64,000 nt of DNA, taken from the NCBI RefSeq assembly GCF_011057685.1, contig NZ_LNFY01000001.1, forward strand, positions 620,001-684,000, read 5' to 3'. A program made the translations under genes and the position numbers. Below are positions 1 through 4,757 of the stretch, piece after piece. The stretch is from Thermotoga sp. Ku-13t. Lineage in GTDB: Bacteria > Thermotogota > Thermotogae > Thermotogales > DSM-5069. The number at the start of each line of letters is the position of its first letter. Within the stretch, counting starts at the first letter, position 1. The notes under the pieces were generated by a model. That model saw only the letters and a program-made list of their open reading frames with translations. It did not search any database and was not told where the DNA came from.

Positions 1-412
1 TCTTTTTCAGGTTCTCCTCAAGCCCGAGCTCGCAGGATTTGAGCAGTTCCAACGCTCTGCTATCGACGTGGCCGAAGGTGAGACCTCTGAAACCCTTTTT
101 CCTTGCGAGCATGAGGTTCTCTTCGATGCTCAGATTTGGAAAGATACCAAGGTTCGGATCTTGACAGACGATGCTGCCACATTTGAAAATCTTCTCTTCT
201 CTCAACACCCGACCCATGATTCGACAGACTCCGAAAGTCGGTTTTACCTCACCCACGATGACTTTCATCAACGTGCTCTTTCCCGCCCCGTTGGCCCCCA
301 CTATCACAACGAACTGACCTTCCTCAACGAACAGATCGATGTCCCTCAACGCGACTTTCTCATCGAGTGTGCCCCTGTTGTAAATGACTGTGACTTTCTG
401 GAGCTCTATCAT
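1..412 (-). CDS. trpZ: Tryptophan-type ABC importer, ATP-binding subunit (3' part outside window)
   Basis: N-terminal 137 residues of an ABC ATPase; the gene runs off the left edge. It begins MIELQKV and contains a Walker A motif read as GANGAGKST, followed by a Q-loop region (CQDPNLG). The signature and Walker B motifs would lie outside the window. The ATG overlaps the stop of the upstream permease by 4 bp, so the two are translationally coupled. It would energise the importer formed with the next two genes (family COG1101 in the COG2984/COG4120/COG1101 type of system). The tryptophan assignment comes from the leader peptide upstream of the operon, not from this protein. Sure of the ATPase family; substrate is inferred. 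Confidence 0.85.
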   Translation of the reverse strand, partial: MIELQKVTVIYNRGTLDEKVALRDIDLFVEEGQFVVIVGANGAGKSTLMKVIVGEVKPTFGVCRIMGRVLREEKIFKCGSIVCQDPNLGIFPNLSIEENLMLARKKGFRGLTFGHVDSRALELLKSCELGLEENLKK

Positions 413-2377: not shown

Positions 2378-2490
2378 AAAAAAGAGGGCATCCTTTTTCT
2401 GGATGCCCTCTTCCTTTTTACTCTGGATTCCCCTATGTGCCAAGTGGCTTAGGGGGAATCCCGGAAGAGGGCCTTCCCCTAAACCACCAG
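2378..2490 (-). promoter_or_regulatory. Tryptophan attenuator (alternative RNA hairpins and terminator)
   Basis: Three mutually exclusive pairings can be read directly, all on the minus strand. (1) Protector hairpin: 2486-2476 (TGGTTTAGGGG) pairs with 2455-2445 (CCCCTAAGCCA), 11 pairs with one G-U; its 5' arm includes the second Trp codon. (2) Antiterminator: 2472-2463 (GCCCTCTTCC) pairs perfectly with 2414-2405 (GGAAGAGGGC), and inside it 2461-2450 pairs with 2435-2425 (TAGGGGAATCC) with one bulge. (3) Terminator: 2410-2401 (GAGGGCATCC) pairs perfectly with 2393-2384, followed by six T at 2383-2378. A ribosome stalled on the Trp codons would block (1) and favour (2); one reaching the stop codon would disrupt (2) and favour (3). 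This is classical ribosome-mediated attenuation, here ahead of a transporter. Confidence 0.88.
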
Positions 2491-2540
2491 TAAGCGTATG
2501 CAAATTCACCAAACCTGGTCCTGACGGCTATCGCTTTCAT
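2433..2540 (-). CDS. trpL: Trp leader peptide (35 aa) with tandem Trp codons
   Basis: A 35-codon ORF from ATG 2540 to TAG 2433, preceded by a G-rich ribosome site (GGGGG, about six bases upstream). It starts MKAIAVR, and residues 14-20 read AYAYWWF, so codons 18 and 19 are adjacent TGG. There are no other Trp codons. The stop codon lies at the 5' edge of the inner antiterminator arm, so the position of a terminating ribosome affects the RNA fold. The peptide itself is unlikely to have a function beyond reporting Trp-tRNA charging. The enterobacterial trp leader is comparable in role, but not long enough to claim homology. Confidence 0.85.
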   Translation of the reverse strand: MKAIAVRTRFGEFAYAYWWFRGRPSSGIPPKPLGT

Positions 2541-2570
2541 AGAAACCCCCGTTCGCATTTGTTTGGATTG

Positions 2571-2599
2571 AGTATATCATCTCGTCTTTCATCTGTCAA
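2571..2599 (-). promoter_or_regulatory. Promoter of the Trp transporter operon
   Basis: Perfect -35 TTGACA (2599-2594), 17-bp spacer, -10 TATACT (2576-2571). It lies just downstream of the tRNA-Leu gene. The start site would be near 2564, about 24 bases before the leader-peptide ATG. Confidence 0.85.
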
Positions 2600-2614: not shown

Positions 2615-2702
2615 TGGTGCCGGGGATCGGATTCGAACCGACACGGGGCCTCGCCCCAGCGGATTTTAAGTCCGCAGCGTCTGCCTGTTCCGCCACCCCG
2701 GC
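2615..2702 (-). tRNA. tRNA-Leu (anticodon UAA)
   Basis: An 88-nt tRNA with encoded CCA. Acceptor stem GCCGGGG pairs with CCCCGGC; anticodon stem GCGGA/TCCGC encloses loop CTTAAAA (anticodon TAA); the long variable arm is typical of class II tRNA; T-arm contains GGTTCGAATCC. It lies between ggt and the Trp operon, with its own promoter and no clear terminator before the next promoter. Confidence 0.97.
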
Positions 2703-2763: not shown

Positions 2764-4482
2764 TCATGGTACTCCTATAACTGTGCCTTCCCTTCGTGGG
2801 TCCGCCCCACCGTAAAGTTTACCGGTCTCGAGGTCTATCACTATGCTCTGTACACTGCCCATCACGATCGGGTTCTCTGCCATCTTGTGCCCGCGAAGCT
2901 CCAGTTCGCGTTTCACGTGTTCTGCTATGCCAGCTTCCCACTGCACCGTCGGATAGCTCGAGCTGAAGATCCTCGGTGCGTTGATAGCTTCCTGAACGCT
3001 CATACCGTGATCGATCATGTTCATGATCACCTGCATGACCGTCGTTATGATCCTCGCTCCACCGGGTGAACCAACGCTGAAGATCGGTTTTCCGTCTTTG
3101 AACACGATAGTAGGTGTCATGCTGCTTCTCGGACGCTTCCCGGGCTGAACTTCGTTCGCACCACCTGGTACAAAGTCGAAGTCGGTCATTTCGTTGTTGA
3201 GTATGAAACCGAAGCCCGGTACCATGAGACCGGATCCAAAAACATCTTCAATCGTCGTCGTGCAGGCGACCAGATTACCCCACTTATCGCGGACCGTGTA
3301 GTGTGTGGTTTGAGAGGTCTCGCTCTCGCAATTCAACGCGGCGAATCTGTCGAAATCTGCCTCGACGTCCGTCTCTCCGTATTCCCAGGGGTTACCCGGT
3401 TTTATGTTCGGATTTGCCTTTTGGAAATCTATGAGCGATCGTCTCTGTTCGATGTAGCGATCGTCCAGATACCCTTTGAACGGTATCTGGACAAAATCTG
3501 CGTCGGCCAGATATTTACCCCTGTCGGCGTAGGCAATACGCATGGCTTCGATCATCAAATGCAGAGTCTGCGTAGTGTTGTGCCCAAGCGCGTGAATGTC
3601 GTAAACTTCAAGTATTTTCAGCATCTGCAAGAGCGTGAGCCCTCCTGAGCTTGGAGGAGGCATGGACACGATCTCGTAGCCACGATACGTTCCGCGTATC
3701 GGTTCTCTGAACTTGACCTCGTAATTTGCGAGGTCTTCAAGGGTCATCGTGCCTCCACGACTCTGGACAGCTTCGACGATGGCTTTGGCTATGTCGCCCT
3801 TGTAGAAGATATCAGGCCCATGGTCTCTGATGAGCTTGAACGTCTTGGCCAGATCCGGTTGTACGAGTAGCGCACCTTCAGGCAACGGTTCACCGTTCGG
3901 TGAGAACACCTGCTTGGCCGCCTCGTTGAACTTGTACATGCTGTCCTTGATTGACTGAGCCAGGACTCTGTTCACCATCACGCCCTTTTCGGCGAGCTCG
4001 ATCGCTGGTTCGATCACCTGGGCGAGGCTCATGGTACCGAATTTTTCGAGTGCTGTAACCATGCCTTTCAGTGTACCTGGAACACCGATCGCATGACCAG
4101 TGAGTATAGCTGCTCTGAAAGGCAAAGGTTTACCTTCCGCGTTGAGGAACATCGTCGGTTTGGCTCCGGCAGGCGCTTTCTCGCGATAATCGATCACGAC
4201 AACTTTGTTTTCATTAGACAGGTAGATCATCATGAAACCTCCGCCACCGATGCCCGACATCATAGGCTCGACGACGTTCAGCGCGAACTGAATCGCAACG
4301 GCGGCGTCCACCGCGTTTCCACCTTGCTGGAGTATCCTGGCGCCAACCAAAGATGCCAGAGGATGTGAGGTGGCCACCATCCCCGTGTAAACAGAAGGTA
4401 CGTCTTTGGGAACGCCAGGTGTGAAAGACAACAAAGTTACGACGATCGCCAGGACGAAGATCGTTGCGAGCAACCTTTTCAC
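2764..4482 (-). CDS. ggt: Gamma-glutamyltransferase
   Basis: A 572-residue exported enzyme that cleaves or transfers the gamma-glutamyl group of glutathione-like peptides. GTG 4482 (VKRLLATIF) is chosen because it opens a signal peptide and has a GGGGG site just upstream; a further in-frame extension to 4530 has neither. The family maturation motif is present: TTHYTV, whose first Thr is the expected autocleavage nucleophile, separating large and small subunits. Downstream motifs GSPGGARIITTV and the N-terminal GGNAVDAAVA and GIGGGGFMM match the family. Length is normal. It is expressed alone from the promoter at 4503-4530, in an organism group not known for glutathione, so cysteine or gamma-glutamyl peptide scavenging is plausible but unproven. 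Confidence 0.93.
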   Translation of the reverse strand: MKRLLATIFVLAIVVTLLSFTPGVPKDVPSVYTGMVATSHPLASLVGARILQQGGNAVDAAVAIQFALNVVEPMMSGIGGGGFMMIYLSNENKVVVIDYREKAPAGAKPTMFLNAEGKPLPFRAAILTGHAIGVPGTLKGMVTALEKFGTMSLAQVIEPAIELAEKGVMVNRVLAQSIKDSMYKFNEAAKQVFSPNGEPLPEGALLVQPDLAKTFKLIRDHGPDIFYKGDIAKAIVEAVQSRGGTMTLEDLANYEVKFREPIRGTYRGYEIVSMPPPSSGGLTLLQMLKILEVYDIHALGHNTTQTLHLMIEAMRIAYADRGKYLADADFVQIPFKGYLDDRYIEQRRSLIDFQKANPNIKPGNPWEYGETDVEADFDRFAALNCESETSQTTHYTVRDKWGNLVACTTTIEDVFGSGLMVPGFGFILNNEMTDFDFVPGGANEVQPGKRPRSSMTPTIVFKDGKPIFSVGSPGGARIITTVMQVIMNMIDHGMSVQEAINAPRIFSSSYPTVQWEAGIAEHVKRELELRGHKMAENPIVMGSVQSIVIDLETGKLYGGADPRREGTVIGVP

Positions 4483-4757
4483 AGGAAATCCCCCTTGCTT
4501 CGATTGTAGCACTTCGACGAACAGCTCCAAGTTCGGATGTGGAAACGAAATTCAACCAGCATGAGGGTATGAAAATGCTGAAAAAACCGGGATCAGGTGA
4601 ATCAACACACAATCTGCTCTTCAAATCCAACTTGAAGAGCTTGCGGAAAGCGGAGCGCTGAATCACTGAAGAAACTTTCGGGGGGAACTAGTCGCCGTAC
4701 ACGATTGTTCCAGCGATCATGGAACAAAGGCTTGAGTGAACAGTGTGTACGACTGCC
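4483..4757. other. Intergenic region between ggt and fliE with two hairpin-forming repeats
   Basis: No convincing gene. It holds the ggt promoter, a perfect inverted repeat GCTCTTCAA (4616-4624) / TTGAAGAGC (4632-4640) with a 7-nt spacer, and a nested repeat further right: TTGTTCC and GGAACAA separated by 9 nt at about 4705-4728, flanked by CGTACAC and GTGTACG. The nested structure could form at the 3' end of the flgB-flgC-fliE transcript, but no T-run follows in that direction, so it is not a standard terminator. Confidence 0.6.
4503..4530 (-). promoter_or_regulatory. Probable ggt promoter
   Basis: Extended -10 TGC-TACAAT (TACAAT at 4508-4503), 16-bp spacer, weak -35 TTGGAG (4530-4525). The start site would be near 4496, leaving a leader of about 14 bases. 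Confidence 0.5.

Follow-up and report, generated by a model that had tools for sequence, protein, structure and literature searches.

The minus strand of the 64,000-nucleotide stretch of Thermotoga sp. Ku-13t DNA analysed here (the window) carries a compact leader in front of an ABC importer operon. This raises two questions: whether the leader decides, by means of a translating ribosome, if the importer genes are transcribed, and which amino acids such a switch would sense. An initial annotation had described the locus as a ribosome-mediated tryptophan attenuator and had seen in it strong evidence that the importer carries tryptophan. We consider it highly probable, judging from sequence, comparison and folding models, that the leader is a ribosome-mediated transcription attenuator of an aromatic amino-acid ABC importer. 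The restriction to tryptophan is probably too narrow.

Layout of the leader and the predicted switch

Table 1. Features of the leader and of the importer operon (window coordinates)
Feature	Position	Strand	Remarks
-35 hexamer TTGACA	2594..2599	-	similar boxes visible in many relatives' leaders
-10 hexamer TATACT, TG before it	2571..2576	-	from the sequence
GGGGG, probable ribosome-binding site of the leader ORF	2546..2550	-	relatives have GGAGG or a similar motif here
Leader ORF MKAIAVRTRFGEFAYAYWWFRGRPSSGIPPKPLGT, 35 codons and TAG	2433..2540	-	ORF kept in relatives
Putative sensor codon run F13-A-Y15-A-Y17-W18-W19-F20	2481..2504	-	aromatic run at a similar offset in 46/46 homologs analysed
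Protector arm P TTTAGGGGAA	2474..2483	-	pairs with 2458-2449, encloses arm A
Protector 3' arm TTCCCCCTAA	2449..2458	-	pairs with P
Antiterminator arm A GCCCTCTTCC	2463..2472	-	complementary to 2414-2405
Inner antiterminator helix, 5' strand GGATTCCCC	2453..2461	-	pairs with 2433-2425; overlaps the protector 3' arm
Inner-helix partner GGGGAATCC	2425..2433	-	pairs with 2461-2453; its first base is also the final base of the leader TAG
Arm B GGAAGAGGGC	2405..2414	-	common to antiterminator and terminator
Intrinsic terminator	2378..2412	-	12-bp stem 2412-2382, 7-nt loop, T6 2383-2378
trpX-type substrate-binding protein (SBP), PF04392	1368..2348	-	ATG 2348 after GGAGG 2360-2356
Permease, PF02653	409..1371	-	start codon overlaps the SBP stop codon
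ABC ATPase, clipped by the window edge	1..412	-	248 aa in the genome

The promoter named in the initial annotation is borne out by the minus strand, with a 17-nt spacer and a match to the consensus at 11 of 12 positions. The same applies to the 35-residue leader peptide, whose coordinates, length and codon numbers (TGG TGG at codons 18-19) proved correct. All parts of an attenuator are present and in the correct order: promoter, leader ORF, protector arm, antiterminator arms and terminator. The three competing hairpins proposed there are indeed mutually exclusive and end in the terminator, with one refinement. The antiterminator is a composite stem, in which the helix GCCCTCTTCC:GGAAGAGGGC is joined by the inner helix GGATTCCCC:GGGGAATCC; the former competes with the terminator, and the latter by itself is clear of it.

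As annotated, the leader runs into a three-gene ABC importer operon, in which the successive starts of the SBP, permease and ATPase genes overlap the preceding stops. The SBP matches PF04392 (ABC_sub_bind) with 270.5 bits, above the gathering score of 25.9.

In the proposed mechanism, transcription would begin just downstream of 2571 and a ribosome would trail the polymerase into the leader ORF. A shortage of charged tRNA-Phe, tRNA-Tyr or tRNA-Trp would make this ribosome stall in the run FAYAYWWF and hinder the protector, leaving arm A (2472-2463) free. Arm A would then pair with arm B (2414-2405), assisted by the inner helix; no terminator would form, and the importer genes would be transcribed. 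If all three charged tRNAs were plentiful, the ribosome would cover arm A on its way to the stop codon, B would pair with arm C (2393-2384) and transcription would stop at 2383-2378. Translation of the leader ORF, stalling and termination in vivo are what we infer from this layout.

Folding energies and chance tests

At 37 °C, the computed energies were -15.0 kcal/mol for the protector hairpin (2483-2449), -38.9 kcal/mol for the composite antiterminator (2472-2401) and -21.4 kcal/mol for the terminator. The protector hairpin can thus form, and at equilibrium it is outweighed by the antiterminator. The fold of the 193-nt leader surpassed all of 200 dinucleotide shuffles (z -3.8). In addition, the A:B helix scored 27 against a shuffle mean of 14, where the p value of 0.003 is the floor of 300 shuffles.

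The whole arrangement was also searched for, a match requiring a terminator, an ORF, a complementary arm and an aromatic run before that arm. On both strands of the window, the only match was the attenuator site. Three mononucleotide shuffles of the plus strand of the window yielded no match, and neither did both strands of 215 kb of other Thermotogota loci. The same scan recovered 38 of the 46 TrpX leaders described below.

Conservation across Thermotogota

Among 103 Thermotogota genomes, 43 contained an SBP match; discarding weak hits (E near 1e-4) left 47 SBP genes from 40 genomes. Leaders of 46 of these were analysed in full and the 47th (G101) was read by eye. Of the named relatives in the collection, a Pseudothermotoga MAG is the closest; its SBP shares 91% identity with that of the window.

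Each of the 47 clear TrpX-type importer genes is closely preceded by an intrinsic terminator and has a leader ORF with a run of aromatic codons. Attenuation by a ribosome, as claimed in the initial annotation, is supported at the sequence level by the codon run and the complementarity, which are kept in 46/46 homologs; the relatives were checked precisely for the loss of both. In all 46, the arm that pairs with the terminator 5' arm begins 2-9 nt past the codon run. The best A:B helix measures 6-15 bp, with p below 0.05 against shuffles in 40/46, these per-locus values being non-independent because the leaders share ancestry. Likewise, the independent cases number fewer than 46, since the genomes are related and there are about six distinct arm sequences.

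The strongest evidence for a switch is the joint change of three arms. Arms A, B and C covary between lineages (GCCCTC, ACGTCC, AGACACC, GGCATCCAC, ACCCTTT, ACACTCG); A and C are identical at most positions, and the leader arm and the terminator 3' arm stay near copies. Outside the arms the sequence varies from lineage to lineage, and the codon run is kept. In 21 representatives, which were hand-picked and in which position is defined by the detected arm, aromatic codons account for 98/167 of the eight codons before arm A and for 51/526 elsewhere in the leaders (odds ratio 13). Altogether, the parts, their order, their conservation, the joint change of the arms and the spacing from run to arm A can be read directly from the sequence and its comparison.

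These patterns bear on two explanations that do without a translating ribosome. In the first, the hairpin would be a constitutive terminator for transcription of the upstream tRNA-Leu gene (2702-2615), the ORF would be a matter of chance and the importer would not be regulated by its leader. The tRNA gene does lie 16 nt before the -35 box, with no strong terminator directly behind it. However, trpX keeps its leader at loci without the tRNA, e.g. L007, L008 and L010, and a mere terminator would need neither the conserved codon run nor its spacing nor arm A, making this explanation very improbable indeed.

In the second, a ligand, a tRNA or a protein (riboswitch, T-box or TRAP-like factor) would drive the choice between antiterminator and terminator. 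Firmicutes TrpX operons use a T-box (PMC9382623), and the composite antiterminator could belong to a ligand-binding fold. Against this, Rfam returned only tRNA matches in the window, with the Trp leader and T-box families below the gathering score, and a survey of T-boxes detected none in the Fusobacteria/Thermotogae genomes that it covered (PMC2494555). The variable sequence outside the arms, beside a constant codon run, also speaks against this explanation. We regard this second explanation as highly unlikely.

The search was extended to other genes and phyla. No attenuators of this kind were detected in the 215 kb before trpE and the Tyr/Trp/Phe-tRNA synthetase genes of relatives, suggesting that here the element is tied to the importer. 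The arrangement scan likewise found none at the TrpX loci of a Desulfobacteraceae (L004) and a Dehalococcoidia MAG (L005, with little upstream DNA).

Modelling of ribosome stalling

In the stall model, the RNA beneath a ribosome was masked at each leader codon, and the share of arm B held by upstream RNA before the terminator 3' arm exists was computed. The model consists of equilibrium folds with standard parameters and was also run at 65 and 75 °C. Averaged over the 46 leaders, the predicted antiterminator probability was 0.69 when the ribosome sat on the run, fell to 0.33 across the five codons that follow and reached 0.22 at the stop codon. On the run, the modelled values exceeded those past it in 45/46 leaders at 37 °C and in 46/46 at 65 °C, a drop that is partly a mere consequence of arm A adjoining the codon run. 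For E. coli trpL, the model gave 0.62 when the ribosome stood on the Trp codons and 0.00 when it had reached the stop, and thus recovers the known case.

In the case of the window leader, stalling at Phe13, Tyr15 or Tyr17 would permit the antiterminator fully (0.9). For assumed ribosome footprints between 9 and 15 nt (37 °C), values ranged from 0.6 to 0.9 at Trp18 and from 0.5 to 0.9 at Trp19, and they dropped at Phe20 and beyond. For a ribosome still far upstream, equilibrium folding of the window leader yields about 0.9, and the antiterminator is favoured with the ribosome at the start codon as well; the value for E. coli trpL at its start codon is 0.13. On this calculation the protector is therefore weak, and untranslated leader RNA might read through.

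Codon run, binding pocket and substrate

The run of the window leader is a mixture of Phe, Tyr and Trp codons. Runs in relatives are diverse: some lack Trp (NVYYF in L024, YAYY in L040/L041, FAFAF/FVFAF in L044/L045, FSFF in L049), those of L046 and L048 are Trp-only (WWW), and mixed runs such as FYFWYW occur elsewhere. In four genomes (G045, G057, G087, G095), two or three paralogous importers carry differing runs.

Regarding the substrate, proteins related to the SBP bind Phe, Tyr or Trp according to Bradshaw et al. (PMC6816091), with two residues apparently determining which. The nearest solved relatives are VC_1101 (Phe, 3LKV; E 7e-65), CD0873 (Tyr, 6HNI; E 2e-58) and SP1069 (Trp, 3LFT; E 6e-50), each of which holds an aromatic amino acid (PMC6816091). 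The Asp/Tyr pocket of the window SBP is closest to that of Tyr-binding CD0873 (Glu, Tyr) and unlike that of Trp-binding SP1069 (Ala, Gln): Asp stands where CD0873 has Glu and the other two have Ala, and Tyr stands where SP1069 has Gln. At Gln-284 of SP1069, where Gln is said to admit Trp (PMC6816091), the window SBP and all 46 homologs have Tyr. The model NF041285 (TrpX, tryptophan-specific SBP) scored 251.5 bits, below the NCBI equivalog cut-off of 390.

The acidic pocket Asp, which corresponds to the CD0873 Glu that binds the Tyr hydroxyl, is found in 41/41 SBPs whose run contains Tyr. It is replaced by Phe in three SBPs from two branches, all with Tyr-less runs, and retained in the SBPs of two Tyr-less leaders (L048, L049). 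That the pocket residue tracks the leader codons is suggestive; the association is not significant, and four independent pairs cannot reach significance.

The genome itself was searched for aromatic biosynthesis. Chorismate synthase, prephenate dehydratase, TrpE and TrpA were not detected in the window genome (99.5% complete), and the positive controls of these searches matched in all 14 control genomes. A cell obliged to take up all three aromatics, with a single importer of the TrpX-type family, would benefit from sensing each of them; other transporters may exist. No phylum-wide link between TrpX presence and TrpA absence was seen in the 103 genomes: TrpA occurs in 12/40 genomes with TrpX and in 20/63 without, and relatives with biosynthesis also keep the element.

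Could the leader nevertheless sense tryptophan only, through TGG 18-19, and serve a tryptophan importer, with the Phe and Tyr codons being incidental? Two adjacent TGG codons do lie beside the protector arm, the family is named TrpX, and its Streptococcus suis member imports Trp under a Trp T-box (PMC9382623). Yet relatives have Trp-less runs (L024, L040, L041, L044, L045, L049), 41/46 runs contain Tyr codons, and in the stall model Tyr15 and Tyr17 are placed at least as well as Trp18 and Trp19, which permit the antiterminator partly or fully depending on the footprint. Together with the pocket residues and the lack of detectable aromatic synthesis, this makes a tryptophan-only attenuator unlikely. 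The claim of strong evidence for tryptophan transport falls with the pocket, the missed NF041285 cut-off and the undetected synthesis of the three aromatics. Given attenuation, we think it likely from these sequence features that the importer carries Phe, Tyr and Trp rather than Trp alone, Trp probably being one substrate among several.

Comparison with known attenuators

The window leader resembles E. coli trpL in its tandem Trp codons within a leader ORF, its mutually exclusive antiterminator and terminator and its behavior in the stall model. It differs in the mixed run, in preceding an importer instead of biosynthesis genes, in its phylum and in its composite antiterminator. Its protector is also weaker in the equilibrium model, and the untranslated state may differ. 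Streptococcus suis trpXYZ (PMC9382623) is a homologous SBP/permease/ATPase operon that likewise chooses between terminator and antiterminator on aminoacylation; there, however, a T-box binds the tRNA directly and for Trp only, in contrast to the predicted translation of a codon run here.

A 2010 paper (PMC2965389) states that leader-peptide systems were known only in Proteobacteria and Actinobacteria before its Firmicutes hisS case. Outside Proteobacteria, such attenuators have been proposed for the hisS group in bacilli (PMC2965389), ilvB motifs (PMC10272879) and aroF in Acholeplasma (PMC8632094). The mechanism is the same, and the accessible parts of these sources present none for Thermotogota, the TrpX importer family or tyrosine codons. 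The specificities listed in PMC3766115 are His, Leu, Thr, Trp, Ile/Val and Phe, and PMC8632094 and PMC10272879 add Cys, Phe and branched-chain candidates. Possible tyrosine-sensing attenuators would therefore be a specificity absent from the PMC3766115 list.

Within the literature covered, to which most subscription papers do not belong, we found no leader-peptide attenuator for Thermotogota, the TrpX importer family or tyrosine codons. A broad prediction survey (Lopatovskaya et al. 2010, Mol Biol 44:128) could already include some such leaders. The mechanism is thus classical, and it is the host phylum, the importer family and the tyrosine codons for which no earlier report was found. The window leader would put classical leader-peptide attenuation on importers in a thermophile phylum, conserved across families.

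A wider hypothesis, to which we give an even chance, is that of a phylum-wide, reprogrammable attenuator, whose run would be rewritten as importer paralogs change substrate and whose leader peptide would predict that substrate. Paralog runs are Phe-only (L044, L045, L049), Tyr-rich and Trp-less (L040, L041), Trp-only (L046, L048) or mixed; if the hypothesis is true, the system would include tyrosine-codon attenuators. The pocket Asp found with every Tyr-containing run lends it partial, statistically non-significant support. Paralogs with differing runs in the same genome form a natural experiment on whether the run follows the substrate carried, and codon runs could become a cheap route to annotating importer specificity.

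Neighbouring genes and variant loci

The tRNA-Leu gene (TAA; window 2615-2702, minus strand) is found at the same place in the near relatives L006 and L009 and is absent in L007, L008 and L010. Upstream of tRNA and attenuator, a gamma-glutamyltransferase gene (TIGR00066, 608 bits; window 2764-4530) lies on the same strand. At the other end, just below window position 1 (L084, G000:C1:617500-620500), a lysA-like ORF (diaminopimelate decarboxylase) was recognized by eye from the sequence. It lies on the same strand about 20 nt past the ATPase stop (genome 619666), with AAGGAG before its start, and the attenuated transcript may extend into lysine synthesis.

Some loci deviate in detail. L040 and L041, the third paralogs of G045 and G057 with the Tyr-run leaders YAYYRAKPS, have no clear promoter within 400 nt upstream, and these leaders may be transcribed from the neighbouring importer operon. 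Two SBP frames (G087:C5:128342-129250 and G079:C17:51289-52242) contain one in-frame stop each (TAA and TGA, respectively) behind otherwise intact leaders, and are presumably decaying copies or sequence errors. At L048 (G087, contig C10 near 75693), two consecutive terminator-like hairpins stand between the WWW leader and the SBP gene.
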